Source: Prostheceraeus crozeri (lineage: Eukaryota > Platyhelminthes > Polycladida > Euryleptidae). From it: a stretch of 64,000 nucleotides of DNA. The notes beneath the pieces are model-generated. The model was not told the origin of the DNA, did not search any database, and saw only the letters and a list, made by a program, of their open reading frames with translations. The position numbers were made by a program, and so were the translations under genes. Below are positions 43,151-61,659 of the stretch, one piece after another; the stretch's first letter is position 1, and the number at the start of each line of letters is the position of its first letter. Where the stretch lies: NCBI GenBank assembly GCA_907163375.1, contig CAJQUW010005234.1, forward strand, positions 594,501 through 658,500. Reading direction: 5' to 3'.

Positions 43151-43203
43151 TGCCGGCCAGGTTGGCGTGATGTGCCGGCCAGGTTGGGAGGGTGGACTGT
43201 CGT

Positions 43204-44128: not shown

Positions 44129-44231
44129 CCCAAGAAACAGCTCCAGCGGGCGAATGAAGGCTCGGATTGGTAAACGGAGGCCAGATTTGGAATCAGCTTG
44201 ATGTTATTGTCCAATGAGAATCAAGCATTTC

Positions 44232-44240
44232 TATATAAAT
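44232..44240 (+). promoter_or_regulatory. TATA box of the leftmost Polinton 2 gene
   Basis: tatataaat lies 100 bp before the start codon at 44340, in a leader that shows no upstream open frame. Confidence 0.65.
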
Positions 44241-44339
44241 AGCGAGCCTTCCACAGTGAGAATCATTCCATCGTTGAATCGCACGAGTGACGGACGCACA
44301 TTTTCTCTCTCTAGTTCCCTATTCTATTACCCAACTAAA

Positions 44340-45114
44340 ATGGTAAGTCGCTACTTTCCTCCCTCCCCTCCCTTGAACGTAAACTTAATACAATCTTTTT
44401 CATTTTCAGGCATCTACTCCATCTGCTGCACTAGTAAGACAAAATGGTGGTCAAACGTTACAAGGTTCGCTACGATCAGATCATCTACAACTGAGGCCAG
44501 TGGAAGAAACAACCAAGGTACATAATCCTACACCGCTACAGCGTAAATTTAAACAAGTCTTGCGTTATGACGATCATAGCGTAGTACTCCAAACGGGAAT
44601 GCTCCCTTCCACGGATGTCAAGATAATGCACAATCAGTATGGGGACTACATACTGATCCCCGTGAGTCCGTACATTCGCCGCCAACTTGATATTATTGAG
44701 GAGTACGTGACATTAAATATGGACATTCCTACTCCTCTTGCTTAAGAGTGGAAGGCGAGAGATGACAAGGATACTCCCTATAGAAAGATTTGGGATGGTA
44801 ATCAAATTTGCCTACCGGTATTACATTGGTGCACTTACTATAAGAAGGAGGGAGATCATTCAACACCCATCACATGCGACGAGCTCGGAGAAGGTACTTG
44901 GGATATCCTTTTCAAAGTGAATGGGCTATATTATGGTCGGCACAAGGATAATAAAATAGCCTCTCTCTCCATGCATATGGAATCCATCCTATATATTCCA
45001 AAACCACCCAACGTGGATGACATAATTGATCAAATCCTTAACAGCAGTGGTACGAAGCGCAAGTCGGAGAAGAATGCTGCATCAAAACGCAAATCAAAGA
45101 AGGAGAATTACTAG
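44340..45114 (+). CDS. Unknown Polinton 2 protein, spliced after ATG, in-frame TAA
   Basis: The start ATG (44340-44342) is followed immediately by a 67-bp intron (GTAAGT to TTTTCAG). The second exon starts at 44410 in frame as ASTPSAALVRQNGGQ. It runs to a TAA at 44743-44745, giving 112 residues. The same frame stays open afterwards to 45114 with convincing coding sequence (YRKIWDGNQICLPVLHWCTY, WDILFKVNGLYYGRHKD) and a lysine-rich tail (KRKSEKNAASKRKSKKENY). So either a point stop splits a protein of about 235 residues, or a further splice (GTGAGT at 44662 to AG at 44748, phase 0) removes the stop. The family is not recognised; the basic tail suggests a nuclear or DNA-binding protein. It is the first gene after the TATA box. 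Confidence 0.6.
44343..44409 (+). other. 67-bp intron directly after the start codon
   Basis: Donor gtaagt, pyrimidine-rich tail ctttttcattttcag, acceptor followed by gcatctact. Splicing puts the ATG in frame with the long downstream frame, which otherwise lacks a good ATG. The same design and the same length occur in PolB (60297-60363). Confidence 0.75.
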
Positions 45115-45148
45115 TCCTTTCCTAACTCTACCCTATGACAATTCGCTT

Positions 45149-45274
45149 ATGTGCTTTGAGTGTCGTAGACGTGGTCTTATTAGATACATTTTACTTCTTC
45201 GTTGCCATCATATCATTTGTGTATTTTGTCGTGAAAAGCATCGATGTAATTCTTCATTTTGTAATATGTTATAG
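45149..45274 (+). CDS. Small RING-like zinc protein
   Basis: The 41-residue frame from ATG has the ligand pattern CFEC, then CHHIICVFC, then CNSSFC, which resembles a compact RING-type finger (C-x2-C ... C-H-H-x2-C-x2-C ... C-x4-C). The frame is open for another 41 codons upstream without an ATG, overlapping the previous gene, so a spliced or longer form is possible. RING proteins in viruses usually act as ubiquitin ligases against host proteins; here the role is inferred from the pattern only. A larger RING protein is encoded at 46362. Confidence 0.45.
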   Translation: MCFECRRRGLIRYILLLRCHHIICVFCREKHRCNSSFCNML

Positions 45275-45326
45275 AACGTTTCCTTAGATGTGTAAATTTC
45301 CGTTTTAGGCTTCTATCATCATTTTT

Positions 45327-45857
45327 ATGGATTGTGAGGGTGAACCTGTACAGGAGCTCAGTGCTATTGCTATGAACAATTGGACATATCAGATTGTCAG
45401 TGTCTATCATCAACATGCCAACTTCAATCCCAATGTTGATCAATGGGCGAGAAAACACATTCATGGACTTAATCTGAAATATTTGCAAGACTATGGCTTT
45501 TCTTGTGACAGTTCTCTTCTTATTGACTTTAAACGATGGTTAGCTGCTTTCAATGTTATACGCATCTTTTGTAATAATCCTGGTAAGGAGAGGAAAGTAT
45601 TTCCCAATCTAATCATTGATGATATTTTGCTCCCGCCTTGGGATAGTAGAGTGAATCAACACTACCATGAAGTCACGAAACGTTTTAAGGATTTGTCTGT
45701 TCCTATTTTGTCTGTTCGTTGTAGTAGCTACGTTCATAACCAATGCTTCTTTCCTCCTTACCTCAACACTGCCAAAGTCCTGTATGGTTATCATTGCTCG
45801 CTGTATGATAGTTACCAGCTGTATCTATTTTATCTGTTTCAAACCATTGATTTATAA
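45327..45857 (+). CDS. DEDDh 3'-5' exonuclease-like protein
   Basis: The 176-residue frame begins MDCEGEPVQELSAIA. The D-x-E in a hydrophobic strand context matches exonuclease motif I. Near the end, YHCSLYDSYQLYLFYL resembles the H-x4-D motif III of DEDDh nucleases. Motif II is not certain. The strand leading into motif I lies partly before this ATG: an acceptor (gttttag) at 45308 is followed in frame by codons for ASIIIF, so the true start is probably provided by splicing. Polyadenylation signal aataaa at about 45880. It could degrade or proofread nucleic acid, but substrate and role are unknown. Integrity: no internal stop. Confidence 0.45.
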   Translation: MDCEGEPVQELSAIAMNNWTYQIVSVYHQHANFNPNVDQWARKHIHGLNLKYLQDYGFSCDSSLLIDFKRWLAAFNVIRIFCNNPGKERKVFPNLIIDDILLPPWDSRVNQHYHEVTKRFKDLSVPILSVRCSSYVHNQCFFPPYLNTAKVLYGYHCSLYDSYQLYLFYLFQTIDL

Positions 45858-45944
45858 TGCATGCTTGTTACTATTATTCAATAAATGTTACTATGAGAAG
45901 AGTTGTTGTTTTCATGCAATGGATGGGTTAGATAAAGGGCGATC

Positions 45945-46148
45945 ATGTCTTTCTCAAACGACTGCGGAACATTACATTTTCATAGGCAAAGTTTAAAAGG
46001 AGCTGTTCAAGATTATGTGATAAATTTTCATAAAGATGAGACCGACATCGAAGCAGTGGTCGATGATGCTAGCACTCTATTTCTAGAGTTAATGAATACA
46101 TTCTCTGATAGCATTGTCATGGCGCGATTAGTTGCGAAAATAAATTAA
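45945..46148 (+). CDS. Hypothetical 67-residue protein
   Basis: The frame starts at an ATG (MSFSNDCGTLHFHRQSLKG) and is acidic and helical after residue 25 (DETDIEAVVDDASTLFLELM). No family is recognised. It lies in a run of small same-strand genes between the exonuclease-like and membrane RING genes, and has a tail comparable in size to the next frame. It may be an accessory protein. Confidence 0.4.
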   Translation: MSFSNDCGTLHFHRQSLKGAVQDYVINFHKDETDIEAVVDDASTLFLELMNTFSDSIVMARLVAKIN

Positions 46149-46209
46149 GTTTAGTCATTTTGGAAAGGAAGAGGTGGAAAGTCGCTCTTTCCATTTTGCT
46201 TCTTATTCA

Positions 46210-46359
46210 ATGGAAGTGGTAGATCACCCCGAAGAATTTTTTAAAAGACATATGATAAAAATTGCTGAACGTCTTAACGCATTTAACCATCATGGCAGCA
46301 GTCTAGTGATTGAAGCGATTTCAGATATTCACATTCAACTTTCCATAAAGAAAAATTGA
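46210..46359 (+). CDS. Hypothetical 49-residue protein
   Basis: Frame from the first ATG (MEVVDHPEEFFKRHMIKIAE). The open frame extends 12 codons upstream without an ATG, so the start could come from splicing. Its stop lies three bases before the ATG of the membrane RING gene, implying co-expression. Family unknown. Confidence 0.35.
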   Translation: MEVVDHPEEFFKRHMIKIAERLNAFNHHGSSLVIEAISDIHIQLSIKKN

Positions 46360-46361
46360 AA

Positions 46362-46685
46362 ATGCAGTGGTACTTGATTGTAGCACAACTGGTTTTCGAG
46401 CTATGTCTGCTCACTCTCGAAGTATATTCCTTCTGTACATGCGTCTATTATTTAGAAAAGGCTAGCAAATTCATATCTTCAAAAAGACTTGCTATAGACA
46501 TCAGTAACGGTGAAACTATGTGTTGTGATGTATGTAAGCGAAAGGATGGCAATGAAAAGCGCATCTTCAAGAGATGTAAGCACGCTTTTTGTCAACGCTG
46601 TTTCATACGTAATTGCATTCAACTTTGCAAATGTAACCACTGTGACATTGCTCATTTCGAGTGTCACTTATGTCGCAATAGTTAG
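46362..46685 (+). CDS. Membrane-anchored RING-type protein
   Basis: This 107-residue protein has a hydrophobic N-terminal segment (YLIVAQLVFELCLLTLEVYS, residues 4-23, probably signal anchor). The C-terminal zinc domain reads CCDVCKRKDGNEKRIFKRC, then KHAFCQRCF, then C-x-C-x2-C and CHLC, a RING-like cross-brace. Membrane RING ligases of this size are used by large DNA viruses to remove host surface proteins, so host interference is a reasonable guess. I cannot show ligase activity. The preceding small gene ends three bases upstream. Confidence 0.5.
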   Translation: MQWYLIVAQLVFELCLLTLEVYSFCTCVYYLEKASKFISSKRLAIDISNGETMCCDVCKRKDGNEKRIFKRCKHAFCQRCFIRNCIQLCKCNHCDIAHFECHLCRNS

Positions 46686-46736
46686 TACCTATGCAAATGT
46701 GGTAAAGATAGGTTTTAGCAAAGACTAACACGGAAA

Positions 46737-47102
46737 ATGGCGAAACGTAAAATGACGAAACGTAAAAGTCAAAAGTCTTCAAAGTTTTCTTCAGCCATTC
46801 AAGCTCTCCGACGAATGAAAGCAAATCAGCGATACAATGCTATACGACATGCCAACGATAAATTCATTCGTGAAATTATTTCTCATGTCAGAAAGTTGAG
46901 GACGAAGACATTAGCGCCAAAACAACGAAAGTTACTTAAGCGATATGCCACAAAATTGCGTTTCATCTCCAATCCTAAAGTCACCCTTCAAAGAAAGAGG
47001 AAAACTCTAACACAAAAGGGCGGTTTCCTTTCAGCAATACTTCCAATGTTAGCTCCTGTCGTGGGTAACCTATTGGGTAATATCTTTGGCTCTAAGCGTT
47101 AA
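46737..47102 (+). CDS. Basic virion core-like protein with hydrophobic C-terminus
   Basis: The 121-residue protein is strongly basic from MAKRKMTKRKSQKSSKFSS through a helical middle (HVRKLRTKTLAPKQRKLLKR). It ends in GGFLSAILPMLAPVVGNLLG, a hydrophobic segment preceded by GG. This combination is common in invertebrate Polintons just upstream of the packaging ATPase. Possible roles are DNA condensation, like adenovirus pVII or pX, or membrane lysis, like pVI. The GG before the hydrophobic tail could be an adenain-type cleavage context. Its end overlaps the open frame of the ATPase, whose ATG is 31 bp downstream. Confidence 0.65.
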   Translation: MAKRKMTKRKSQKSSKFSSAIQALRRMKANQRYNAIRHANDKFIREIISHVRKLRTKTLAPKQRKLLKRYATKLRFISNPKVTLQRKRKTLTQKGGFLSAILPMLAPVVGNLLGNIFGSKR

Positions 47103-47133
47103 TTATGCAAATGTTGAATCTCAAAGTATTAAA

Positions 47134-47751
47134 ATGGATTTCAGACTTCAATGTGATAAAGTTCTGACTGTATCAGGTCCATCTCATGCAGGTAAAACTG
47201 TTTTCACGCTGAATTTATTGGATAAAAGAAGGGAGTTGTTTAAGGAACCTATCAATCGAGTGATTTGGTGTTATGGTATTTATCAACCGTCGCTGTTTCA
47301 GGAATTGCAAAGTCGCAACTTTATTCGACATGAAGGAATTATTGCAGTTGATAAACTTCAGTCTAATGATGTTGTTGTATTGGATGATTTATTAAAAGAA
47401 AGTAAGAATTCAAAAGATGTTACAGATATGTTCACTCGCGCAGCACATCATAAAAGGTGCTTTATCATCTATATCACACAAAATTTGTTTCCTGATGGAA
47501 AAAAAGCTCGTACACGAAACCTGAATACACACTATTATGCTATTTTCAAGAATCCGCGAGATAAAAGTCAATTTGAAATTTTAGCGCGACAAGTTGCACC
47601 CAGAGGATCAAAAGCCTTAATTGAAATTCTTCAAGCAGCTACTGAAAAACCATACGGTTACTTATTCATTGACTTTACGCAAGAGTGTCCGGAAGAATTT
47701 AGATTTCGAAGTGATATTTTGAAAACTCCCATGATTATCTACAAACTATGA
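47134..47751 (+). CDS. A32/FtsK-like DNA packaging ATPase
   Basis: The 205-residue protein has Walker A GPSHAGKT (residues 15-22), Walker B VVVLDDLL (80-87) and a sensor strand CFIIYITQNLF. This is the size and layout of Polinton packaging ATPases of the HerA/FtsK superfamily. The start chosen is the first ATG (MDFRLQCDKVL); the open frame runs 16 codons further upstream but overlaps the core protein gene. Its stop overlaps the next start (ATGA), so the two genes are translationally adjacent. Intact. Confidence 0.9.
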   Translation: MDFRLQCDKVLTVSGPSHAGKTVFTLNLLDKRRELFKEPINRVIWCYGIYQPSLFQELQSRNFIRHEGIIAVDKLQSNDVVVLDDLLKESKNSKDVTDMFTRAAHHKRCFIIYITQNLFPDGKKARTRNLNTHYYAIFKNPRDKSQFEILARQVAPRGSKALIEILQAATEKPYGYLFIDFTQECPEEFRFRSDILKTPMIIYKL

Positions 47752-48440
47752 GTTCTTATTCTCGCATGATTGTTATTCCTCAGGATGAATATGTACAATT
47801 GACTGCCATGCAGCAAGTAAAGCAACCTCTTGCAAATCAAATGTATAGGAAAGAAATAGATTATCAGCAAAATGTTCACATCAAAGATCCACATCGTGCT
47901 GTATTATTACAATCGGAAACTGTTGAGCAATTGAAAAACTTGAAGAATAAGATGCGTGACTCTGTATCGACTGCTACACCTTTAGCATCTCGCGCACATG
48001 CCATATCTCTTTTCAACAGTATTGAACCCCATCTCAATGTAAATGATAGAGGAGAAATCATTACAGATGAAAATAAAGTGATTGATGCTTCACGTTATGA
48101 AGACTTGATTCAGTATGCGACACGTAGAAAGCGCCGTCAGGGCTATGTTCCACCTGGTTGGTCATACTTTCTTAAACTATTGAAAAAGCATAATGTGCCA
48201 AAATTTGCTTTGAATAATGAGACATTGAAAGAACTTGATTCAACAGTGGCTACTGCTCCAATGCTTCAGGCGATGAAAATGCCAACAAATTGGTTTAAGA
48301 CGTCACCTGCTACATCCCCTCCCACATTCACTAAGCAAACAAGAGGAAGAACTCGACGTAGATCTACATCACCACTAAAACTAGTAAAAGGAAAACGTAA
48401 AACAGCTCCTACCAAGAAATACATGTTCTCAGACTATTAA
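47748..48440 (+). CDS. Conserved Polinton-type protein of unknown function
   Basis: The 230-residue frame starts at the ATG overlapping the ATPase stop. It begins MIVIPQDEYVQL, has a helical centre (VEQLKNLKNKMRDS), a block GYVPPGWSYFLKLLKKHNVP, and a basic serine/arginine tail (RGRTRRRSTSPLKLVKGKRK). By position next to the ATPase, and its helical-then-basic layout, it is a counterpart of the unknown gene near the penton gene in Polinton 1, but I cannot show homology. Possibly a minor virion or DNA-binding protein. Confidence 0.6.
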   Translation: MSSYSRMIVIPQDEYVQLTAMQQVKQPLANQMYRKEIDYQQNVHIKDPHRAVLLQSETVEQLKNLKNKMRDSVSTATPLASRAHAISLFNSIEPHLNVNDRGEIITDENKVIDASRYEDLIQYATRRKRRQGYVPPGWSYFLKLLKKHNVPKFALNNETLKELDSTVATAPMLQAMKMPTNWFKTSPATSPPTFTKQTRGRTRRRSTSPLKLVKGKRKTAPTKKYMFSDY

Positions 48441-48441
48441 T

Positions 48442-48657
48442 ATGAAGCAGATGTGTTGCTTGCCATGTAATGAGCCGCCAGAGGTGAATGTCGTTGTCAC
48501 TTGCACTTGCTGCGCCAGCTCTCACAATGAAACCCCTAAGCAATGTGAACACGATCGCAAAACCGCTAAAGCTAAATGCTGCAGTTGTTGTAAATGTAGA
48601 AAGGCAAGAAAACAAAAAGATGAGAAGGAGGAAAAAGAGTCAGTCGTCATCGGCTGA
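48442..48657 (+). CDS. Cysteine-rich small open frame overlapping integrase
   Basis: The 71-residue frame begins at an ATG one base after the preceding stop. It has clustered cysteines (MKQMCCLPC, CTCCASS, CCSCCKCRK) and a lysine/glutamate-rich end. It overlaps the N-terminal part of the integrase frame, which lies in another frame. The cysteine spacing may form zinc or metal sites. Either it is a real overlapping gene or the integrase starts further downstream. No family is recognised. Confidence 0.35.
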   Translation: MKQMCCLPCNEPPEVNVVVTCTCCASSHNETPKQCEHDRKTAKAKCCSCCKCRKARKQKDEKEEKESVVIG

Positions 48658-49706
48658 ACGTTTGAAGTCAATCTATTATGATGTAAAACATCCGGCAGGA
48701 TTTGCATCGATCAAGAAGTTATCAAAAGCGAGTGGTCTTCCACAATCACAAGTGAACCGATGGTTAAAGGGTCAGGCTACCTATACACTCCACAAACAAG
48801 CGACAAAGAAGTACCGCACCCGCCATTATATTGTTCATGACATCGATGAACAGTGGCAAGCAGATTTGTGTGATGTTGCCTCCATTTCAAAACATAAATC
48901 GGGCAATAATTTTATTTTAACCGTCATTGATATTTTCTCGCGTTATGCGTGGGCTCAACCTTTAAAAACTAAAGAAGGGAAAGGAGTAGCAAAAGCATTC
49001 CAAACAATTTTTCGAGAAGGTCGGATTCCAAAAAGAATTCAGAGTGATCAAGGAAAAGAGTTTGAAAATCAGCATGTGAGAAGATTATTTGAGAGGCATG
49101 ACATTGAGTTGTTCAGTGTAAAGTTGTTATAAAACTGCACTCGTTGAACGTTTTAATCGCACATTAAAAAATCGCTTGTGGCGACATTTTACTGCCAACT
49201 TGACACAAAATTGGACAAAGGTTCTACAAGATACACTTCATGCCTACAATCACTCTATCCATCGTTCTATTGGACTCAGACCAGTAGATGTAAATGCTGA
49301 CAATGTAGATAAAGTGCGCGAATCATTCCAACGTAAACGCACTCATGTGAAAAGTGATGTGAAAATTGGTGATAAAGTTCGTATCTCAAAAGTGAAGAGT
49401 GTTTTTTCTAAAGGGTACCTTCCGAATCGGACAGAGGAGGTATTTACAGTATCAAGGATTAATCAAAAAGACTCTCCGACCACCTACAAGTTGAAAGATT
49501 ACGATAATGAAGAAATTGAGGGTAGCTTTTACCGCGATGAGATTGAGGTAGTCACTGAAAGTGAAACATATTTGGTAGAGAAAATCATTCGGTGTAAAAA
49601 ACGGCAAGGTGAAGAATGGTGTCTTGTTAAATGGACTGGTTATCCTTCAAGTATGAACTCTTGGATGCGTCGTGCCGACATCTTTCATCTAAGTGATCGA
49701 CAGTGA
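48488..49706 (+). pseudogene. Polinton integrase with chromodomain, one frameshift
   Basis: Domains in order: a helix-turn-helix-like start (YYDVKHPAGFASIKKLSKAS), the DDE core with Asp in QWQADLCDV, Asp in IQSDQGKEFEN and Glu in LVERFNRTLKNR, an SH3-like barrel (KIGDKVRISKVKSVFSKGYL), and a chromodomain (VEKIIRCKKRQGEEW, LVKWTGYPSSMNSW). The frame changes by +1 at about 49119-49121 (an AAA run, consistent with one extra base) between the second Asp and the Glu. A start at an internal ATG (MRRRKKSQSSS, about 48620) is as likely as 48488. The chromodomain probably guides insertion to histone-marked chromatin. The frame change could be real decay or an assembly error. Confidence 0.9.
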
Positions 49707-49747
49707 TTCATGCAAAGTTGTAACTAACAATGTTTAGGGTTTGAGCC

Positions 49748-50203
49748 ATGAATCCAACTGCCTCATTTTATTCACGACCCTCCTATGTAAGTGGTGGAGG
49801 ACAAATTTACATCGGCGCTCGCCGCCAACGTGGAGGTAGCATACTTGGTGCACTGAAATCTGTTGTAGCACCTCTCATATCCAATGTCGGAAGATCTTTA
49901 AAACGAAATGTTTTAAGTAATGCCGTTGGCTTTGCTGGTGATGTTGCTAGTGATCTTTCCATAGGTAGAAGTTATAAGAGCAGTTTGTTGAATCGTGGGA
50001 AGGAACGCGGTTTAAAAACATTGAAGCAGACCTTTGCTGGTGTTACTCAAGGAAAGAAATCGCCTAAACGAATGAATAAAGGAAGGAGGAAACATCGCGG
50101 AGCTGGTAAGGTGCGATCTTCAGTCAAAAGGCATTCACGCAAACGTCGCAGAGGCTCTAATCATTCATCAGGCGCTAAACGACGACGCTGCCATAACTTC
50201 TAA
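49748..50203 (+). CDS. Basic virion protein with amphipathic N-terminus
   Basis: Of 151 residues, the first half is hydrophobic or amphipathic (GGSILGALKSVVAPLISNVG, then VGFAGDVASDLSIGRSYK). The C-terminal third is almost purely basic (KRMNKGRRKHRGAGKVRSS, then KRHSRKRRRG). This matches the small protein encoded immediately upstream of the major capsid gene in many invertebrate Polintons. A pVI-like lytic helix joined to a DNA-binding tail is a reasonable reading. It ends two bases before the capsid start. The RGG near residue 30 may be a protease site. Confidence 0.65.
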   Translation: MNPTASFYSRPSYVSGGGQIYIGARRQRGGSILGALKSVVAPLISNVGRSLKRNVLSNAVGFAGDVASDLSIGRSYKSSLLNRGKERGLKTLKQTFAGVTQGKKSPKRMNKGRRKHRGAGKVRSSVKRHSRKRRRGSNHSSGAKRRRCHNF

Positions 50204-50205
50204 TC

Positions 50206-51483
50206 ATGGAGTGTAAAACTTCCGGGTTTTGTTTGTTTGATCAACAAGCCATACAGACAGATATTCTTAGTTCAAGTATTGTAGATTATCATCCTCGAAC
50301 AGCTGAGAATGCTGGCCCCATTGAATTTGTTATTCCTGGTGGTAGTGATGACTACATAGATTTGAGTTATGCGATGGTTGATTTGAGGTTTAGAATTCAG
50401 CAAGCAGATGGAACTGCTATTGACGATACACATAAAGTTGAACTGAACAATTTACCATTGACTACATTACTTCGCGATGTTTCTCTAACGATTGGAGAGC
50501 AGCAGGTGGAAGGTGGTCAAAGCGATTATCCCTATAAATCATATTTCAATCATGTATCACAGTTTCATCCAGCAGCACAAAAAAGTCATATGGAAGCCAT
50601 GGGATGGTACAGAGATGAAGCAGGAAAATTTGATGCTGAAACAAACAGTGGCTTTGTAAAGCGATCTGCTTTGATTAAAGATAGTAAAGTATGTCAGCTA
50701 TATGGTCCGCTGAATTTAGACTTCTTTAGACAGTCAAAGTTTTTACTCTGTAATACCAGCATGCGACTCAAGCTGACATTGAATAAGCCTGAATTTGCGC
50801 TGAATGCATTTGCTAAAGTTGACAATTTTAGAATTCATGTGGAAGATATTGCACTTTACATTCGTCGAGTAGTACCGAATCCAAGTGTCATTAGAGGGCA
50901 TGCTGAAGGTCTTAACCGCCAAAATGCCATTTACCCCATTCAGCATACAAAGCTTCTCACCTTTACAATTCCGAAAGATCAAAAGAGTTTCATGAAAGAT
51001 GGCCTCTTTCCATCGGAAGCACCGAAGCTCCTCATGGTGGCAATGGTTGAAAATGATGCATTTAATGGTAATATAAAGAAGAATCCTTTCAATTTTAAAC
51101 ACAATCAGTTAAGTGAAATTGCTTTACGTGTAAATGGTGTGAGTCATCCTGGTCCACCCTACAAACCAGATTTTGCTTCGGATAAATTTATGCGCAGTTA
51201 TGTTGATTTTATGGATGTCTTTGGCTTTTACAATACGGATGACACCAACGGACTGACTATGAAAGAGTTTAAGAGTGGATATACTATTTATGCATTTGAT
51301 TTGACTGCTGACAGCGATATTAGTGCACCCCATCGTCAAGCGAACGTGCCTCATAATATTCGTTTGGATTTGACGTTCAAAAGAACACTACCTGAGACGA
51401 TCAATGTATTAATTTATGCAGTCTTCGATTCAAATATTGGAATTACAAAGTATCGCGACGTGATTCTTCAGTATAATCGTTAA
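50206..51483 (+). CDS. Major capsid protein (double jelly roll, F54H12.2-like)
   Basis: The intact 425-residue frame carries the conserved capsid blocks: IEFVIPGGSDDYIDLSYAMV (residues 40-60), a central SDYPYKSYFNHVSQFHP with AMGWYRDE, LDFFRQSKFLLCNTSMRLKL, and a C-terminal YTIYAFDLTADSDI leading to strands that end ITKYRDVILQYNR. Proteins annotated as F54H12.2-like in many invertebrates belong here. It would form trimers building a T-number icosahedron. The stop overlaps the protease start by one base, so capsid and maturation protease are encoded back to back. Confidence 0.85.
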   Translation: MECKTSGFCLFDQQAIQTDILSSSIVDYHPRTAENAGPIEFVIPGGSDDYIDLSYAMVDLRFRIQQADGTAIDDTHKVELNNLPLTTLLRDVSLTIGEQQVEGGQSDYPYKSYFNHVSQFHPAAQKSHMEAMGWYRDEAGKFDAETNSGFVKRSALIKDSKVCQLYGPLNLDFFRQSKFLLCNTSMRLKLTLNKPEFALNAFAKVDNFRIHVEDIALYIRRVVPNPSVIRGHAEGLNRQNAIYPIQHTKLLTFTIPKDQKSFMKDGLFPSEAPKLLMVAMVENDAFNGNIKKNPFNFKHNQLSEIALRVNGVSHPGPPYKPDFASDKFMRSYVDFMDVFGFYNTDDTNGLTMKEFKSGYTIYAFDLTADSDISAPHRQANVPHNIRLDLTFKRTLPETINVLIYAVFDSNIGITKYRDVILQYNR

Positions 51484-51944
51484 TGAGTTGGTTGACTGCT
51501 GACGATATTAAGACTAAAGTGCAGCGTAATGCAGACGAAGCGACGTTGAAAGCTTTCGATAATGTCTATTCACTCGATACCTTACCACCTGCAGTAAATC
51601 ACTATCCCATCTTTATTGTGCTAAACACTCATTCGCAGAATTTAGGCGGTGAGCATTGGAAAGCGATCTTTATTGGAGAAGACCGACGTGGTGAACTATT
51701 TGACTCTCTTGCTCAACCTCCAAATATACCAACACATCAGTGGTTGAGAAAACATACGCGTCAATATCAGCGAAATGAACGCATACTACAACATCCACTT
51801 TCATCAACGTGTGGTGCTTTTGTACTGTACTTCATCTTAAAACGTTTACATGTATCTCGATTTGTATCTGTTATTCAAAACTTTTCATGTAATCCTTCCT
51901 CTAATGAAAAAATGATTTGTAAGTTCTATCATGATTTGAAATAA
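51483..51944 (+). CDS. Adenain-like cysteine protease
   Basis: The intact 153-residue protein has the catalytic set of adenovirus protease: His58 in GGEHWKAIF, Asp74 in LFDSLAQPP after the strand, Gln103, and Cys110 in STCGAFVLYFILKRL, with the Q-to-C spacing of seven. It lacks the extra N-terminal region found in the Polinton 1 protease. It should mature capsid and core precursors. A polyadenylation signal overlaps the end of the gene. Confidence 0.9.
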   Translation: MSWLTADDIKTKVQRNADEATLKAFDNVYSLDTLPPAVNHYPIFIVLNTHSQNLGGEHWKAIFIGEDRRGELFDSLAQPPNIPTHQWLRKHTRQYQRNERILQHPLSSTCGAFVLYFILKRLHVSRFVSVIQNFSCNPSSNEKMICKFYHDLK

Positions 51945-51981
51945 AAACATCATGTTGGAAAAATTGTTTTTTATTTTACAA
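51941..51981. terminator. Overlapping poly(A) signals of convergent genes
   Basis: aataaa directly follows the protease stop on the plus strand. On the minus strand AAATAAAA overlaps the stop of the TBP-like gene. The two transcription units therefore end within about 40 bp of each other. Confidence 0.65.
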
Positions 51982-52516
51982 TGCGCTGGGTACGTACATA
52001 CTCGATGAGATAGTCTAGGATCACATTTGCTTGTACATGAGATTTTAGTCCAGTAATAATCACTTTACTATTATGAAAAATTGCAACATGCACAGGTAAC
52101 CAACAACTAATGAGAGCTGCAGAAAAAAGTTCGGGTTCATAACACAAATTGTAACTGCTGGTACGAATCTTCAAAAATGATACACTTTCACTCAATTGAG
52201 TAGAGATCACCATATTGTCCACAGTCAGATTCGACATCACACACCTCTCCCTCTTCCATATCCGACGTAGTAGTCTCTGCAGCTCTAAGCGCATTGACTG
52301 CGCCGATGAATGAGAAAGGGCGCCGAGAATCTGTACAGTCCCATTTGGGAAGAGTTGAAGATTCCGTGAATTGTTCATCTTCACCACTAACATTTGAGGT
52401 CGGCCCGGGTAATACTTGCTGTTTGGAAGGTGTTGGTGTAATGTTGTCAGATCAATTTTGGTGTAGAGTCTGAAGCGACGGAGAATGTTGACAATGGTGT
52501 AGCGATGGCGCTTCAT
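51971..52516 (-). CDS. TATA-binding-protein (TBP) homologue
   Basis: The 181-residue protein is the size of the TBP core and has its two pseudo-symmetric repeats. Repeat 1 runs from YTIVNILRRFRLYTKIDL to LFPNGTVQILGALS (residues 6-68). Repeat 2 runs from VDNMVISTQL through YEPELFSAALI (126-136) to KVIITGLKSH (151-160); YEPELF is a signature of TBP. Of the four phenylalanines that kink TATA DNA, by my alignment three are kept (Phe56, Phe131, Phe147) and one is Pro40. Start: ATG giving MKRHRYT. The role inferred is recruitment of RNA polymerase II or its factors to the element's TATA promoters. Neighbours are two PC4-like genes on the same strand. It could be a captured host gene, now very divergent. 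Confidence 0.85.
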   Translation of the reverse strand: MKRHRYTIVNILRRFRLYTKIDLTTLHQHLPNSKYYPGRPQMLVVKMNNSRNLQLFPNGTVQILGALSHSSAQSMRLELQRLLRRIWKRERCVMSNLTVDNMVISTQLSESVSFLKIRTSSYNLCYEPELFSAALISCWLPVHVAIFHNSKVIITGLKSHVQANVILDYLIEYVRTQRIVK

Positions 52517-52838
52517 GATGAAAAAATGAGTAAATTGAGCGATGTACCTTCCTTTTATACTTTGCCCAACTACCTTGATGAAATGTGAAGTTAGTATGGA
52601 GTTGGGAATGATAGAGTTGAATTCGCCGTTTGTTGACGCGCAACCAGATGCGATTTCCAATACGTGAATGTCTTTTCATATAGAAGTATTTCAAATCCTT
52701 CATGATATGATGTAGAGATTGAAAATGACGATAAGATAAAGCAAACTCTCTTCTCACATTTCCAGTTGAATCTTTGAAATAGACGTTTCGATCATGATCC
52801 GTTTCAATACGTTGTAGGGAATCTAATTTCCAACTCAT
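52452..52838 (-). CDS. PC4-like transcription coactivator, copy 2
   Basis: The 128-residue protein is a clear paralogue of the next gene (shared W-x-LDSLQ start; FALSYRHFQSLHHIMKDLKY against ITLTWRQFVNLNDIMRDLEY). The strand-strand-helix order (NVYFKDSTGNVRR then the helix) is like the C-terminal PC4/p15 fold, where KGISL...QW..L begins the helix. The last 65 bp overlap the start of the TBP-like gene in another frame. PC4 proteins bind single-stranded DNA and help TFIID-dependent transcription. Assignment is by pattern, not by search. Confidence 0.5.
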   Translation of the reverse strand: MSWKLDSLQRIETDHDRNVYFKDSTGNVRREFALSYRHFQSLHHIMKDLKYFYMKRHSRIGNRIWLRVNKRRIQLYHSQLHTNFTFHQGSWAKYKRKVHRSIYSFFHHEAPSLHHCQHSPSLQTLHQN

Positions 52839-52860
52839 GGTGCGTGGTAGTCATGTCTGA

Positions 52861-53217
52861 TTAAGATTTGCATACTAGGGCGATGAACTCACGACGAATA
52901 AATGTCATGATGGAGCCATGTATGTATCTTCTATACTTCTCCCAATTGTATATGCGAAATGAGAAACAGTTTGCGGAATGAGAATGGCAGATTTGAATTT
53001 CATTTCTGTAATGTTGAAGCCAAACTTGATCACCCAAGGAGATGAATCTTAATGTTTCAAAATATTCCAAATCCCTCATGATATCATTGAGGTTGACAAA
53101 TTGTCGCCATGTTAATGTAATACCTCTTGATGTATGACCATGAGAATTTTTGAAATGTACGTTTCCATTACGATCAACTCTGATATATTGTAGAGAGTCC
53201 AAAATCCATGTCTTCAT
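52861..53217 (-). CDS. PC4-like transcription coactivator, copy 1
   Basis: The 118-residue protein starts MKTWILDSLQYIRVD. After two strands (GNVHFKNSHGHTSRGITLTW) a helix follows with NLNDIMRDLEYF, as in the PC4 core. The second half (LGDQVWLQHYRN ... FRIYNWEKYRRYIHGSIM) seems to repeat the strand-and-helix pattern, which might make an internal pseudo-dimer. Only 35 bp separate it from the divergent penton-like gene. The family call is tentative, but the pair next to TBP makes a transcription role more likely. Confidence 0.5.
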   Translation of the reverse strand: MKTWILDSLQYIRVDRNGNVHFKNSHGHTSRGITLTWRQFVNLNDIMRDLEYFETLRFISLGDQVWLQHYRNEIQICHSHSANCFSFRIYNWEKYRRYIHGSIMTFIRREFIALVCKS

Positions 53218-53252
53218 GATGTTATGCAAAGCCGCAGATCAGCAATATCAAA

Positions 53253-54650
53253 ATGTCGTTTTATCATATTTTGCTTAGCAATGCGGCTGCAAATAGATTT
53301 GCTAGTAATCGAGCCGCACTCTTTTCTACTCCCATTGATCATGCACAACAGCTAAATGGAAAGTGGGAAGTGGGTGTCACTCAACTTGTTCATAGCAACT
53401 GTGTCTATACTTTTGATCATGAGGTGATGACTATTAATATGAGACGCACAGCTGCTTACCAATGTGAAAAGGGCTGCCGAGTATACATTCCACAGTGGCC
53501 AAAGAAAGATCTCTTATCATGTAAAAAGTTTATATATGATTTCTTGAATAAAGCGTGTAAACATATTGCCCAATTTACTCCGCACAATGATGATCATAAT
53601 TATGTACATCATGTAGATGAGAAATATTGGATTGTTGGTTTAAGTCCAAGTTTAAGAAATGATTTAGGTTACCTCGCTAGCGCCTTAACAAGCTATGATA
53701 ATTATAACGTTAATTACCACCCAAGTGGTCATAAACAGTTAATATATCGAGAGGAAGCTTATTATGTAGATCTTATTCCAAAAAATGAGAAGACGTTGGT
53801 GAAGAAGATTGTGATTAAGCCAAGAAAGACAAACATGACTCCTGAAACATTATTGAAGAAATTTAATTATCTCCTTCGAGTTGATGGTAAACAAGTGGCA
53901 ACATTGACTTATATCAAATCATCTAATCATATTGCAATAAGTAAATTAAATGATGATGATCTAGTATTAGTTTGTTCAAAAGATTTTCATCAGTTCTTAC
54001 GACATCGTTCTGCAGCTGTTCATGGAAAATTTGATATGCAACATTTACCATGTGAAAGGTCAAATCAATTTGATACAGAATGGACCGTATCTTTATACAG
54101 AAAGTGTGTAGAGCCTTTAGGTGGTATCTTACATGAAACAAGAGTGTTGATGCCTCGCATTATTACTTCAGTTGAATTGGTTGTAGATTATTTAAATGAA
54201 GTGATTAATGAGCAACATATTTCATTTTCTGAAAAAGAAGGTGTTTTGTCTCTCACTATAAGGGGAAAAGGTATTGAACTAATTATGGATAAAACTCTAA
54301 TGGACATTTTGGGTTTTGATCAAAATATCTTTAAAAGTGGTACTGTAACCAAAGCTAGCGCAGACATGTCACTATCGCGTCGTATTAACTATTTTCAGAT
54401 ATATTCCAATATTGGTGAAGATGTACGTGTGGGAGATGTTGAAGCTCCATTGCTAGCAATGATACCGTACCAGCCAAAAGGCTGCAGTATTTTATCTGAG
54501 CATACTTTCAAGAAAGTGCATTATACAAAGCTGAAATCAAACTACATCCCACAAATTGATATTGCAATTTATGACGATGCTGGTGCGTTGATTCCTTTTC
54601 ATAAAGATGCTGTGACAAGTATCACACTCCATTTCCGAATGAAGAGTTAA
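53253..54650 (+). CDS. Penton-like minor capsid protein 1
   Basis: The intact 465-residue frame has the layout of large Polinton minor capsid proteins. The N-terminus is FYHILLSNAAANRF, then STPIDHAQQLNGKWEVGVTQ. The middle has repeating I-I-x-P strand segments and LMDILGFDQNIFKSGT, and the end has IDIAIYDDAGALIPFHKDA and SITLHFRM. LxxxLGF and the strand pair near the C-terminus also occur in the 265-residue penton of Polinton 1. It probably forms vertices, perhaps with extra spike domains given the large size. It is followed 40 bp later by a paralogue. Confidence 0.7.
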   Translation: MSFYHILLSNAAANRFASNRAALFSTPIDHAQQLNGKWEVGVTQLVHSNCVYTFDHEVMTINMRRTAAYQCEKGCRVYIPQWPKKDLLSCKKFIYDFLNKACKHIAQFTPHNDDHNYVHHVDEKYWIVGLSPSLRNDLGYLASALTSYDNYNVNYHPSGHKQLIYREEAYYVDLIPKNEKTLVKKIVIKPRKTNMTPETLLKKFNYLLRVDGKQVATLTYIKSSNHIAISKLNDDDLVLVCSKDFHQFLRHRSAAVHGKFDMQHLPCERSNQFDTEWTVSLYRKCVEPLGGILHETRVLMPRIITSVELVVDYLNEVINEQHISFSEKEGVLSLTIRGKGIELIMDKTLMDILGFDQNIFKSGTVTKASADMSLSRRINYFQIYSNIGEDVRVGDVEAPLLAMIPYQPKGCSILSEHTFKKVHYTKLKSNYIPQIDIAIYDDAGALIPFHKDAVTSITLHFRMKS

Positions 54651-54689
54651 TGCAAAAGTATGCTAATATATTTTTCCAATGTGAATAAT

Positions 54690-56189
54690 ATGGAAAGTGA
54701 AAATAAGGACTCATTTCTAATCTACTTGCCTAGTAATGCTTCTATGAATAAATTTCCCAAAAATAAACCATCAGACTATCGAGTAGAATTAAATCGCCCA
54801 CTACATTTAGAAGGTGAATGGGAGGTTGGCGTTTCTAGTATTTGCTATGATAGCAATATTCAGAATGTGAATGATTTGGAAGAAATGATATTGACTCCTC
54901 GCACCCATGATGGAATAACGATGAATAATGCATTCCAGTTCCCATACAATTTAACGTCAGATGGAAAGTGGAACTATGAATGGATTCAGATAAAATCAGA
55001 TTATTATGGTCCATTTGGGAATGAGAAAATTATTAAGGCATTCAACAGTGGTAATACTTCCATCATGAAGAATAAGGATCAGAAAGTTTATGAGTTTACT
55101 ATCTATCATTGGAGTGGGAGACAGTTCCTCCGCTTTCATTCTTTTACTAAAGGTCTTACACTGAGGTTGGATAATGAATTCTATCCACATCTCGGTTTTG
55201 GTCATGGACTACATCTAACGTCAATTGCTACTGCAAATGTTAAAAAAGTTTATTCAAATCGAATCAACAAATTTCATTATAGATTTAAAATATTTGATGA
55301 AGATGTTGTAGAATGCGAAGAACGCATCATTTTGAAAAAGCGTGGTGTTCAACTTTTATCACTTATTGAGTTAGTAAAACGATGGAATGAGACTGTGGGT
55401 AAGAAGTATGGAGAGAAAATTATGGCGGACAAAAATAAGTTGGTTATTCAGAAATATAATGACAAACTTACAGTTTATTTCTCTCCAACCTTGAGTCATT
55501 TTGTAAGACATCCAACCCCTATTATTGGAAGCGGTGTGGTGTATGCTTCTCATGAATATCACACTAAAGCTGATTCAGTTAATGATGAATGGTGGGTGGA
55601 CATCTATGGTGATCGCATCAAGAAAATTTACCAGTCTTATCAAGAATCTAAAGTTGCTATCAATATAATGCCGCGTCTATATCATACAGTTGAAAGCTTC
55701 ATTCATGTAGTAAATCCTTATATACAACAGAAGTTGAAGCATGTGATGAAAAGTAAATATGATGTAAAGACACACCACATTTCGTTTTCAATTGAAAATC
55801 AACGCGTTGTTCTGAAACTGGGTGATGACATTCAATGTCAATTGAGTAAAAATTTGAAAAAACTCTTTGGTTTTTCAATGCCACAAACTGTGTTTACTGC
55901 TGCGCATACGATTGGTATAGAAACACCAATGACACTTGATAAACATGAACAGCACCTTTACATTCAAAGTGATTTGATTCTTCCTATTTCTGTTGGTGAG
56001 AAAAAAGAATACATTTTACGTGATTTCATTCATGATAAAGACGCTTCATATGGAATAGTCGAGAAGATGTTTGAATCTATTTTCTATCATCCCGTCGTCA
56101 AACAAACTATACCCTCTATTGCTATCAAAATTACCAATGGTTTACAAGAGTGCATCCATGTGAAAGATACTAAATCCCTCGTAACTTAA
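54690..56189 (+). CDS. Penton-like minor capsid protein 2
   Basis: About 499 residues from the ATG at 54690 (an alternative start lies 30 bp upstream). It shares the N-terminal pattern of the preceding gene: SFLIYLPSNASMNKFPKNK, then LNRPLHLEGEWEVGVSSICY. It also shares a later KLFGFSMPQTVF block in place of the ILGF block. It lacks the SITLHFR end of its neighbour. It is probably a diverged duplicate that makes a second vertex or spike component. Intact. A poly(A) signal occurs at about 56235. Confidence 0.65.
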   Translation: MESENKDSFLIYLPSNASMNKFPKNKPSDYRVELNRPLHLEGEWEVGVSSICYDSNIQNVNDLEEMILTPRTHDGITMNNAFQFPYNLTSDGKWNYEWIQIKSDYYGPFGNEKIIKAFNSGNTSIMKNKDQKVYEFTIYHWSGRQFLRFHSFTKGLTLRLDNEFYPHLGFGHGLHLTSIATANVKKVYSNRINKFHYRFKIFDEDVVECEERIILKKRGVQLLSLIELVKRWNETVGKKYGEKIMADKNKLVIQKYNDKLTVYFSPTLSHFVRHPTPIIGSGVVYASHEYHTKADSVNDEWWVDIYGDRIKKIYQSYQESKVAINIMPRLYHTVESFIHVVNPYIQQKLKHVMKSKYDVKTHHISFSIENQRVVLKLGDDIQCQLSKNLKKLFGFSMPQTVFTAAHTIGIETPMTLDKHEQHLYIQSDLILPISVGEKKEYILRDFIHDKDASYGIVEKMFESIFYHPVVKQTIPSIAIKITNGLQECIHVKDTKSLVT

Positions 56190-56389
56190 GTGTTTCGGAA
56201 AACAAAGTGAAGTCATTGTGATATGTTTATTGAAATAAAAATATGTGTATGAAAAAGTCTTTTCACAGATAAAGGGGGAATGGGCTGACTGTAGGCATAT
56301 ATTCACAAGGAAGAAACGATCTCATGCGATACATAAAACAACCATGTATATCTACAAAAAGCAACATCAAAATACTGAGTTAAAGTTGA

Positions 56390-56641
56390 TTATGTCAATA
56401 CATCTCCTGAATAAGGTAGCGTGAGTTTTATTCTTTTGGGTGGAGGTATGTTTGTGTCAGGATGTCCATGTGGAAGAGATGTGTTATGTCCTATCCAACA
56501 CCTCTTATCCTCCCATGCTGAAAGCGCTCGTTTCTTGAACGTGTGCGTTTTCACAGTATGAACTTGAGATTTTAAGATTGTCATATTGACAAACGTTATA
56601 GTTTTATTTTTATAGGCCTTCTTATAGGACCGATGTTTCAT
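56390..56641 (-). CDS. C-terminal continuation of PolB in the next frame
   Basis: The 83-codon frame contains HTVKTHTFKKRALSAWEDKR, the segment that normally ends Polinton PolB (V-Y-x-VK ... K-x-ALSxxDDKR). It starts at an ATG that overlaps the stop of the main PolB frame (ATGA), one base back. So the polymerase tail is either translated by reinitiation or a -1 shift at the A4 run (56641-56644), or has been split by loss of one base. The RIKLTLPYSGDV end is not part of the usual motif set. Confidence 0.7.
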   Translation of the reverse strand: MKHRSYKKAYKNKTITFVNMTILKSQVHTVKTHTFKKRALSAWEDKRCWIGHNTSLPHGHPDTNIPPPKRIKLTLPYSGDVLT

Positions 56642-59600
56642 TTTGTGAACAATGGATTTTGATATACCTTTTTCCCACGCTTAATACTATCTGCACATTC
56701 TTTTAATTTCATGGAATACATTTTAGGACGGAGGAGAATCATTTTATCTATTTCCTTTCCTGCTGTTTCATCCTTAAAACAACCAAGTTTGGCTTTATTC
56801 TGTATGGAATAGAGTGGATGAGTGGGATTGTAGTTAGATGTGTCGAAATATTTTTCTAATGACTTGCCTACTTCATTAAAATTTAAATCTTTTTGAGTGG
56901 TAATTCCTAAAAAGAAACTATCTGTATCACCACCCAGCAGGCGAACCTCTTTTACGAGAGGGCATGGTTTTAATATTTTGTAGAAGAGTTGATACATTTC
57001 AAGCTTGGAATAATCTAAAACGGCTTGTCCAATATCGATGGGTTTGCACAACTCAACTTCTGATTTTATCATTTTAACACCTACAAGATCCTCATCGATG
57101 ATGTCTCTATCAATGAAAAGAGGTGATGAGGTCAATTTGTGATATTTTTGTTCATCAACGACTAGTTTGTAGTTCATACGTTTTCTAACATCCTCCATGG
57201 TCTTTCCGAAAAGACTGTTATTCTTATATTTATAAAAATCCTTTTCAAAATTATTTTGGGCGAGTGCACGTTTTTGACTGTTACTATCTATGTAGGGTTT
57301 GAGGAAGGCTTTCTGTCTAAATTTGATAATGCGGTGAACTGACTTTAGAAGCATGCCCATTTCTAAATAGAATTTTAGTATGCAGAAGTGTACGAGATAA
57401 TTTTTCTTATCATATTGGGTGAGTAAAAGTTTGCGGCATGGTTTGTACCTTGGCTGTCCACACTCTGTTAAGTTATTATGAAATTGTGACATGAATGGTG
57501 AAAACATATCTTCAGTCACTTCACCAGATTCAGGTGCGAGTGGGAAATCAGCAGTTTTATTTTTAATGCTATTTGGATAAATCAAATCCACTTCAAAATA
57601 ATATCCCCAATCACCTTCATCTGGAATCTTCAGTATGTTTGAAGGGTTGGAGTAATACTCAAGCTGATCTTGATTTAACCAACTAAACTCGGAATGAGGT
57701 AGTGGTTTAGACAGTGAACTGCCATATAAATTATTTTGGTCATAGTACTTTAGGTGGATATGATCATCACCTACTGTTTCAGATTTTATATGATGTTTAT
57801 TTACAAATGTGAGACCACCGCGTATTCCGCGCTCAAATATATTATACATCTCCGGGTCTTGTAAGAGATGAATGGTCTCACCAGTTATTTTAAAGGCTGA
57901 TTTAAAGGACATGGCTGGTAGACTGACAAAGTGGACAGGATCTAATTTGTCTTCTTCTAATGCCACTCGTCGAAATTCCTGAAAGACATCAGCCAGCAAA
58001 ATGACATCTAATTCTAAGTAAGCGATCATATAATCGCCAAACGTTTTACAATCAAATTTTAACCATGCCTCTTGAGCATGTTCATAATCTTCTACCGGAC
58101 AATCTTGACCCGTCAAATCGTTTTGGAATTTGTCAATGGAAGGAAGGGTTGTTTCATTTAGTTTAGACATTGAGCTAAAATGCGCATAGGGAAAGACTCC
58201 TTTGCGAGTGATTATTTTATCCGTTAAGTTTGGATAGTGTTTCTTCAAAGTTTGACTATGGGGAAGAAACTTGAGATTACGAACGAGAGAAGCTAGTGAA
58301 GCTGACATGAATTGAAATGAATCTAAAAATTTTATTTCGAAGAAGACTGTCTTATTTTCTTTAGTTTTATCTACTGGTACTTTTGCTGTCATTGCCATGA
58401 ATTTTTCTCTCGTTTGCGCTATTACATTAAACTGCCACGATTTCATCTGGCTCAACCCTCCTTTTACGAGCATATGACTGTCATAGCCCTTAAAGTTATG
58501 AAAAATGACGGGTAGTACACGACGTCTCAACCTAAGTGAAAAGTTACATTTGGAGCAGAGTGCGTTTCTAAATTTACCAGTGATGTGATCATGATCACGC
58601 ACTTTCTTAATTTTATCGTCATCAAACGTTTTATGACATTTAGGGCACGATGTGCAACTTTCGAATTTTTGTTTGTCTTCATCTGACATATGTAGTGACT
58701 TACGCTGCAATTGGGAATCATATGATTGTTGAAATTTAGCAGCTTTATCGAGAAATTCTAGAAATTTTGAAATGCAATCTTCACCTTGCCAAGTATGCAT
58801 TTTGTTTTGTCTATTCCTAAAGTGGTCATGCCATACTTCATAGCAGGATATGGCTGCTGGCTTGTGGATGATATCATCAATGTAGCATTCTATGTCTGCG
58901 TAAATGACACGCAGTGGACTTAATTCGTCACCATTATCGCTATGTGAAAATATTTTATCTTTGGGCATGCGTTCCATTTGTAATTTACCTCGCTTGCACC
59001 ATTCATAGTGAGTTTCAAATTTATCTTTACTCCAAAAGGAGCGGATGCAGCGGTCGCATACAAAATGTTCACCTCTTTCAGAGTGCCCCAAGTGAGTGTA
59101 CAAGCGAGAGATTTTGGGAATACCACAGTAGTGCCATTCCTCGCTATCATCTTGTTTTACTAATAAGAGGTTGACTACACGTTCATAACAAGTTGAACGT
59201 GAATTATAGCGGGCACCCTTCAACCCCTTCTCCCACACGTGAACGACAATTTTAATCTGATTATGTTTTTCGAACGTTTCTACATCTTTGATTTTCATGT
59301 TGTTACTATCACAACCTTCAAAGTCTAGTTCATCCTCCCACTGTCTATAGCTATAGGTGCGATCTCGGTGCGCGTTGATATCATTATAGTGAAGGATGGA
59401 TAGGACTGCATATTTGAAACACTGTGATTTACAATCGACATTGATGACAGCTTTCTTATTATACAACGTTCTTGGTAGTTTAAATGTGCCTCGAGCTGCA
59501 TGACTTTCTAATAGGGAAATTTTGAATATGGCTGAGTCCACACCATCAAAAATGAGAGCGCTATCGCGTTGATTGAATTTATCTACATTTGATTTTAAAC

Positions 59601-61087: not shown

Positions 61088-61144
61088 TAAATTTTTATTT
61101 CGTATTATCTTTGCTTTCATACTGACTTACTTGAATGGGGCTTC

Positions 61145-61546: not shown

Positions 61547-61659
61547 GAAGAGAGAAGTGTGTTATGTTGCGTGTGGCGCGTGAGTGTCCTCCCATTTCAT
61601 TCCATTCATCAATTCGTCTCATTGATAGAGACAGGTAGAACTCATGGTTCTCATAACGT

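Follow-up and report, generated by a model that had tools for sequence, protein, structure and literature searches.

TATA-binding protein (TBP) is usually seen as a fixed part of eukaryotic transcription, and viral versions have been described chiefly in giant viruses, mirusviruses and herpesviruses. Polintons (Mavericks) and adintoviruses carry inverted repeats, a 6-bp target site, an integrase and protease-, ATPase-, capsid- and polymerase-like genes, as does the element described here. To our knowledge, TBP does not belong to the Polinton gene set. The cellular TBP (PF00352) and the TBP of this element have in common the two-repeat saddle, the YEPELF signature, the central pair of asparagines and the presumed TFIIB-contact glutamates, and three of the four DNA-kinking phenylalanines are shared. 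The element TBP differs in being 24% identical to the TBP of its host, in having proline in place of the first kinking phenylalanine, in carrying mostly Gln, Gln and Leu at the positions of Leu114, Val122 and Thr124, and in having no N-terminal extension.

Among DNA viruses, TBP was found in 59% of mirusvirus genomes versus 0% of Nucleocytoviricota in one survey, according to the accessible text of that source (PMC10132985). The TBPs of giant viruses and mirusviruses resemble the Polinton TBP as a virus-borne TBP fold. Their genomes, however, are far larger, mostly with their own TFIIB and in some cases their own RNA polymerase, as the excerpted sources describe them (PMC7221094, PMC11464507), whereas neither was found in the scanned open reading frames (ORFs) of the Polinton, whose TBP keeps the host-type TFIIB contacts. 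A second mode is represented by ORF24 of KSHV, a TBP-like viral factor that acts together with the host's RNA polymerase II at late promoters whose box is not TATA but TATTWAA. In the available part of the same account, ORF24, one of the late TBP mimics of beta- and gammaherpesviruses, keeps four phenylalanines, has an extra C-terminal domain and works with five other viral proteins (PMC12529657); the Polinton protein, in contrast, consists of nothing but a TBP of 181 aa that sequence profiles recognise, and for it only a candidate box and its spacing are seen here. In the open-licence literature, judged largely at title level, we found no description of a Polinton TBP. Where TBP is named in the accessible portions of these sources, the carriers are giant viruses, mirusviruses or mirusvirus-like elements (PMC11071308, PMC10675990, PMC10132985, PMC13037468, PMC11464507, PMC12085832).

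Gene content of the Polinton element

The analysed stretch (the window) comprises 64,000 nucleotides of the Prostheceraeus crozeri genome. In the window and the 5 kb beyond it, terminal inverted repeats were located at 42909-43611 and 65243-65857, which are 92-94% identical and have the termini AGTAGTAAGT. They are flanked by CACGAG and CATGAG, a 6-bp target site duplication matching at 5/6 positions. By these repeats and this duplication, the element is a Polinton of about 22.9 kb. Its features are as follows.

42909..64000 within the window, no strand: Polinton element with inverted terminal repeats; the right end lies 1,857 bases past the window (65857)
42909..43611, no strand: left terminal inverted repeat, containing tandem repeats
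46737..47102, plus strand: small basic protein, 121 aa, from the ORF list
47134..47751, plus strand: packaging-ATPase-like gene (Pox_A32 E=0.021, below cut-off)
48488..49706, plus strand: integrase in two open pieces, 48488-49132 and 49176-49706 (rve core, chromodomain)
49748..50203, plus strand: 'PVI', small basic protein ahead of the capsid gene, named from position only
50206..51483, plus strand: gene for a major capsid-like protein of 425 aa (DJR-like_dom E=0.064, under the cut-off; 257 relatives)
51483..51944, plus strand: adenain/Ulp1-type protease-like gene (PF02902, Peptidase_C48, E=0.0011, 19.3 bits, just under the cut-off of 20.7)
51971..52516, minus strand: TBP gene, 181 aa, two-repeat core (PF00352 profile, PDB matches, fold)
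52452..52838, minus strand: PC4-like gene b, 128 aa, overlapping the TBP start by 65 nt
52861..53217, minus strand: PC4-like gene a, 118 aa when counted from the ATG, with 39% identity to PC4-like b
53253..54650, plus strand: 'LPS1', 465 aa, role unassigned (91 scored host-genome copies, 97-100% identical)
54690..56189, plus strand: 'LPS2', role unassigned, starting at the second in-frame ATG
56390..60210, minus strand: DNA polymerase B-like gene in pieces 56638-60210 and 56390-56641 (Endonuclease_7 and C2H2 finger matches)

The integrase was recognised by profile search (PF00665, E=2.8e-11, 44 bits versus a cut-off of 32.6; chromodomain PF00385, E=2.1e-7). We take the gene at 56390..60210 to be a polymerase B from motifs familiar to us; PolB profile searches with its product gave no match. 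The capsid-like name of the gene at 50206..51483 is partly our own assumption as well. Neither the capsid-like nor the protease-like product had an NCBIfam match, and the capsid profile had no PDB match. The TBP, capsid-like and protease-like frames are open in the window copy; the integrase and the polymerase are each broken into two frames, indicating that this copy is decayed.

Two small cysteine-rich, RING-like ORFs were seen near the left end (45026-45274 and 46356-46685), the first with a weak RING match (E=0.32). In the host flank, the GC content is very low (8.6% at 14-16 kb and 14.3% at 16-18 kb) and the AT skew is extreme; the region 14001-18000 probably consists of simple repeats.

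Identity of the TBP gene

The ORF at 51971-52516 on the minus strand comprises 181 intact codons. A preliminary description of this DNA had read it as a complete TBP core with both repeats, the YEPELF signature and three of the four kinking phenylalanines, and each of these points held. PF00352 matched the product in two stretches at E=7.4e-20, with 71 bits versus a gathering cut-off of 22.9. TBPs made up 35 of the 36 PDB sequences listed as matches (E<=3.7e-6), and ten NCBIfam TBP models matched as well, the best at 1.2e-17 and all under their own cut-offs. YEPELF occupies residues 126-131. Aligned to the host TBP, to which the protein is 24.2% identical over 149 positions, the product has phenylalanines F56, F131 and F147, and proline (P40) at the first kinking position. 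The predicted fold is the two-repeat saddle, and Foldseek matches in BFVD included the viral TBPs of Heterosigma akashiwo virus 01, Mimiviridae sp. ChoanoV1 and megavirus chilensis. The preliminary description had placed the gene between the protease and penton genes. The protease-like neighbour (51483-51944) is there; the penton identity of the gene beyond (53253-54650) was not borne out.

PC4-like genes beside TBP had also been named. Two ORFs (52452-52838 and 52861-53217) are indeed present, the nearer one overlapping TBP at 52452-52516. The PC4 profile, however, matched neither protein at E<=10 in Pfam or NCBIfam. The fold of PC4-like a came nearest to PUR-alpha, a modest match; PC4 was absent among the fold matches, an absence that excludes nothing. 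The two PC4/PUR-like proteins are possible single-strand binders.

Relatives and recurrence in the host genome

A single search with the element TBP returned 18 relatives, 33-78% identical over the alignment. The profile built from these 18 returned 208, and a precomputed TBP domain was present in 120/120 of the matches listed. Two sub-families could be distinguished by eye, an RGRPxML...NGRN type and an RGRPTML...KR type. No relative was confirmed in IMG/VR scanned with the TBP, the family alignment, the polymerase ORF and the capsid alignment, in GTDB genomes, or in phage records searched with the element TBP. Pairing the TBP and capsid clusters through contigs of the same length yielded two coincidences (10272 and 1196) between two lists of 120, a number that does not clearly exceed chance, and this link was discarded.

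The host genome (2.05 Gb, 14,165 contigs) was searched with the Pfam TBP model. Among 10,983 candidates, 150 were scored and all 150 were above the cut-off. Four of these matches are host genes, namely a normal TBP (C9306, two exons) and a gene that we call TRF2/TLF-like by resemblance (C3829; locus L002). The latter is a divergent TBP paralogue too, but it reads YEPELHSG and has lost Phe, while the Polinton protein keeps YEPELF; a TRF2 derivative was rejected on this reading. We examined 20 loci, hand-picked to spread over the match list, and 2 added later. Polinton polymerase and/or capsid matches were present within 5 kb of TBP in 20/20 and 2/2, i.e., 22/22. That a Polinton encodes its own TBP, as the preliminary description had put it, is thus supported by profile, fold, family depth, these 22 loci and the selection described below.

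The 20 loci were assigned to lineages A-D by DNA similarity. Lineage A comprises eight copies that are 96-98% alike, a group to which the window belongs, and has a sister, L028, at 87-88%. The 91 scored LPS1 copies at 97-100% identity indicate that lineage A expanded recently. Lineage B consists of L009-L011, lineage D of L013, and lineage C of L012, L017, L019, L022, L023, L025 and L027, with L031 and L032 joined on gene content. Most TBPs of lineages B, C and D share 38-45% identity with that of the window. The protease-like gene adjoins TBP in 13/20 loci, and the order protease-TBP-PC4-like-LPS1 recurs in 10/20. In lineage C (7/20 loci), polymerase and TBP are present in all and a PC4-like match in 5/7; capsid, protease and integrase matches were found neither in these seven loci nor in L031 and L032, nor in 26 kb around one lineage C copy (L030, L022, L029). 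L032 has two copies of the polymerase end at 5924-9436, which run in opposite directions and stand back to back from about 7710.

Selection and divergence

The TBP genes of the window and L028 differ with a dN/dS of 0.25 at a dS of 0.39. For the same pair, dN/dS was 0.15 for the capsid, 0.16 for the protease, 0.13 for the ATPase, 0.31 for LPS1 and 0.36 for LPS2. Compared with four of the eight lineage A copies, the window TBP gave 0.09-0.21 on few changes. Within lineage C, L022 versus six copies gave 0.38-0.80, which points to weaker constraint on TBP there or to decay once the copies had inserted. Synonymous sites are almost saturated in comparisons across lineages. For the window and L028, dS was 0.09-0.11 for LPS1 and LPS2 and 0.36-0.55 for the capsid, ATPase, protease, TBP and PC4-like genes; given the low LPS1/LPS2 values, the two copies look like recombinants. 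The polymerase (dS 1.26 on 168 codons) was out of line with the other genes. Its sequence, relatives and constraint mark the gene as one that Polintons have long carried and that encodes a divergent TATA-binding protein.

Residues kept and changed in the element TBPs

Residues were counted in 121 aligned sequences (the window copy and 120 others), with pairing taken from the alignment to the host TBP; the yeast TBP names and numbers are those that we take to correspond. The kinking phenylalanines F56, F131 and F147 are kept in 121/121, 120/121 and 120/121, respectively, and the first kinking position is P40 in 116/121 (four gaps, one Gln). With three of the four in place and proline at the first, the protein is a TBP homologue and, by that feature, not a canonical TATA binder. 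The central asparagines are kept at N10 (102/121, the other 19 being gaps) and N101 (120/121), and T155 in 120/121. The first repeat carries Q54 in 111/121 (normally Leu; the Leu114 position), Q62 in 121/121 (normally Val; Val122) and L64 in 106/121 (normally Thr; Thr124). The second repeat is partly unconventional too, with Ala in 77/121 or Thr in 39/121 at the Leu205 position. Residue 132 is Ser in the window copy versus Pro in the other 120. As judged from these aligned residues, the second repeat is largely conventional, with most DNA-contact residues kept, and the first-repeat DNA face has been rewritten in a fixed way.

In the accessible text of PMC7221094, two acidic residues of the TBP C-lobe are TFIIB contacts, the conservation of one of these in other viral TBPs is put at about 40%, and a TFIIB-like gene accompanies TBP in almost all TBP-bearing viruses. 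E127 (119/121) and E129 (121/121) of the second repeat are presumably these two glutamates. No TFIIB profile matched any of the 25 ORF products that were scanned from a list of 39 (at least 80 aa, 40-64 kb). Since the presumed contacts are kept and the scanned ORFs gave no TFIIB match, we infer that the element TBP would use host TFIIB.

TATA promoters

The preliminary description had noted TATA boxes before several genes, and they were found, starting at 44234 (plus), 62354 (minus) and 62876 (minus). A fourth precedes the TBP gene.

44234..44241, plus strand: left-end gene, TATA box with a TCA 31 nt downstream and the presumed ATG (44340) 106 nt downstream
52552..52559, minus strand: TATAAAAG box ahead of TBP, 43 nt upstream of the ATG and inside the overlapping PC4-like b ORF, TCA 32 nt on
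62347..62354, minus strand: TATATAAG TATA box, 53 nt before the ORF 62044-62301
62869..62876, minus strand: TATATAAA TATA box, 39 nt before the ORF 62571-62837

An initiator-like TCA, with its A 30-32 nt from the first T, follows 4/4 of the boxes; the box at 62876 is followed by three successive TCA, 20, 25 and 30 nt away. Boxes with TCA at this distance should suit host TBP. The TBP-gene site reads TATAAA in 17/17 copies where our pattern found it, out of 23 (the window and 22 loci); the pattern missed L013, L014, L015, L016, L021 and L031. This box lies within the PC4-like b frame, so that protein constraint could keep it and its conservation is not independent; Tyr and Lys codon use (98 TAT : 42 TAC, 168 AAA : 76 AAG) alone predicts TATAAA in about half, and the copies are related. 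A TATA kept in read-through N-termini was considered and rejected: x-I-K was seen by eye 13-16 codons before the start in 12/29 of the long N-termini listed, a stretch that overlaps the PC4-like frame and is therefore not independent evidence.

The left-end gene (44340-44409) seems to start ATG-GTAAGT...TTTTCAG, a likely intron straight after the start codon. Three 144-nt repeats (61887-62030, 62420-62563 and 62894-63037; 97-100% identical) are interleaved with small minus-strand ORFs, and two of them precede the 62354 and 62876 TATA boxes. They are perhaps a duplicated promoter/terminator module.

A GC-centred box upstream of other genes

Other genes carry a different octanucleotide at a similar position.

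46690..46697, plus strand: GC-centred box TATGCAAA, at -47 of 46737 (basic protein)
47104..47111, plus strand: GC-centred box TATGCAAA, at -30 of 47134 (ATPase-like)
49709..49716, plus strand: box variant CATGCAAA, at -39 of 49748 (PVI)
52867..52874, minus strand: GC-centred box TATGCAAA, at -36 of PC4-like b, overlapping the end of PC4-like a
53223..53230, plus strand: GC-centred box TATGCAAA, at -30 of 53253 (LPS1)
54659..54666, plus strand: GC-centred box TATGCTAA, at -31 of 54690 (LPS2)

ATGCAAA was the best of 846 7-mers upstream of 20 gene starts (P=4e-7), with 5/8 of the element's sites located there; random start sets equalled the best 7-mer P in 4/300 and the best 6-mer P in 10/300. 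The form TWWGCWAW precedes 6/16 starts in the window (0.37 expected), 2/10 in L010 (0.18) and 3/7 in L013 (0.16), counts that flatter the box because the form was written after all three lineages had been viewed. One of the six window starts, PC4-like a with the box at -60 within the reversed LPS1 frame, is doubtful. With the box fixed from the window, L010 and L013 together gave 2/17 at up to one mismatch (P=0.086) and 9/17 at up to two (P=0.007), several of these nine sites not being GC-centred. The orthologous leaders gave 2/8 (P=0.021) and 5/8 (P=0.019) at the same limits. At similar distances, L010 leaders carry TAAGCTAT and TAAGCAAT, and L013 leaders TATGCTAA, TAAGCAAA and TAAGCTAA, one of them before a CTG start; LPS2 and the ATPase of L010 have near-matches only.

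Comparison of the window with L028 showed that the PVI box is identical at 7/7 positions versus 18/34 in the rest of the leader. For PC4-like b, the figures are 7/7 and 22/49, a box that protein constraint could keep because it lies within the PC4-like a frame. In the L028 LPS1 leader, ATGCAAA is there by eye, and MAFFT misaligned it (4/7 in the box). The integrase has a 47-nt leader without the box. The capsid, the protease and a 230-aa ORF start at most 3 nt from the preceding gene or overlap it, and are also boxless, which would fit transcripts shared with that gene. From box to ATG there are 30-48 nt, a range that overlaps the 39-53 nt measured for three of the four TATA boxes. These figures lend weak support to TWWGCWAW as a better candidate than TATA for any target of the element TBP's own; the GC-centred box should be regarded as a good candidate and not as an established result.

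Discussion

The preliminary description had suggested that the element may carry a dedicated initiation factor favouring its own promoters, a suggestion that the analysis leaves plausible. We lean slightly towards a scheme in which host TBP starts the TATA genes and the divergent element TBP then drives a second gene class through host TFIIB and polymerase. First, host TBP and RNA polymerase II would express the TATA genes of the element, TBP included. The element TBP would then bind element promoters that host TBP reads poorly, and by recruiting host TFIIB and polymerase II there it would start the second class. This class would most likely be the capsid and packaging set, in which TWWGCWAW stands about where other genes carry TATA. 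From their products, the TATA genes would be early and the box genes late. The mode would be like that of the herpesvirus ORF24/UL87 late TBP mimics, but with a true TBP homologue and host TFIIB.

Because of the guanine amino group, ordinary TBP disfavours a central GC pair in its TATA box. The fixed glutamine and the lost threonine on the first-repeat face would be one way to accept such a centre, and on this footing we infer a link from the box to the element TBP. Whether the whole amounts to a private code is a more tentative matter. In that version of a two-step programme, host TBP would read the TATA boxes, that of the element's TBP gene included, and a re-specified TBP (Pro for Phe, Gln for Val) would read TWWGCWAW before the capsid genes, with host TFIIB and polymerase II kept, across several lineages; we regard it as possible, with the balance against it. 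Lineage C, which keeps TBP where no capsid gene was found, counts against a role at capsid promoters. It argues that TBP there may also or mainly serve the polymerase or early genes, or that the copies are mobilised in trans, although the weaker constraint on TBP in this lineage weakens the argument.

The same lineage, with TBP kept beside the polymerase, would suit a simpler explanation, that the Polinton TBP binds ordinary TATA and adds dose for the polymerase and other TATA genes at times when host TBP is scarce or tied up by TFIID, NC2 or Mot1. The GC-centred box would then be the site of another factor. TATA promoters are present in the element, and three of the four kinking phenylalanines and both central asparagines are kept. 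The first-repeat contacts (P40, Q54, Q62, L64), however, differ nearly uniformly from the usual ones, a change needless for a plain TATA binder, and we find this explanation rather doubtful. The box could instead be a host POU-factor site: ATGCAAAT, which we take to be the octamer of POU factors, lies just upstream of a start at 3/5 of its sites in the element and might place the structural genes under tissue control, with the element TBP unrelated. Against this, TAAGCTAT, TAAGCAAT, TATGCTAA and TAAGCTAA occur at similar distance in other lineages and are not octamers, and the distance from box to ATG overlaps, as noted, that of three of the four TATA boxes; a POU site is therefore unlikely.

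The loss of one kinking phenylalanine, and the persistence of TBP with the polymerase and PC4/PUR-like genes where no capsid gene was found, would also fit a protein that has left initiation, as a DNA-bending or packaging/replication accessory with a saddle fold or as a decoy blocking host TFIIB or TAFs. The presumed TFIIB-contact glutamates are nevertheless kept in nearly every copy, above the level in other viral TBPs according to the excerpted text of PMC7221094, which makes this role quite improbable. Finally, it is hardly credible that the ORF arose by chance or through an annotation error, or that the host TBP gene was captured fortuitously in recent times, as 24% identity to the host TBP, 208 relatives, four lineages and a dN/dS of 0.25 refute this and no supporting point was found.

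Under the two-step scheme that we lean towards, Polintons may direct the transcription apparatus of the host towards genes of their own. A TBP of 181 residues in a transposon-virus of about 23 kb, with many copies and several lineages, offers a small natural system in which to study how TBP specificity changes and how small DNA viruses time their genes without a polymerase of their own. Polintons also gain a transcription module to be sought in other genomes. If the private promoter code is true, the protein would be a TBP whose specificity has changed in nature and has been maintained in several lineages of Polintons.
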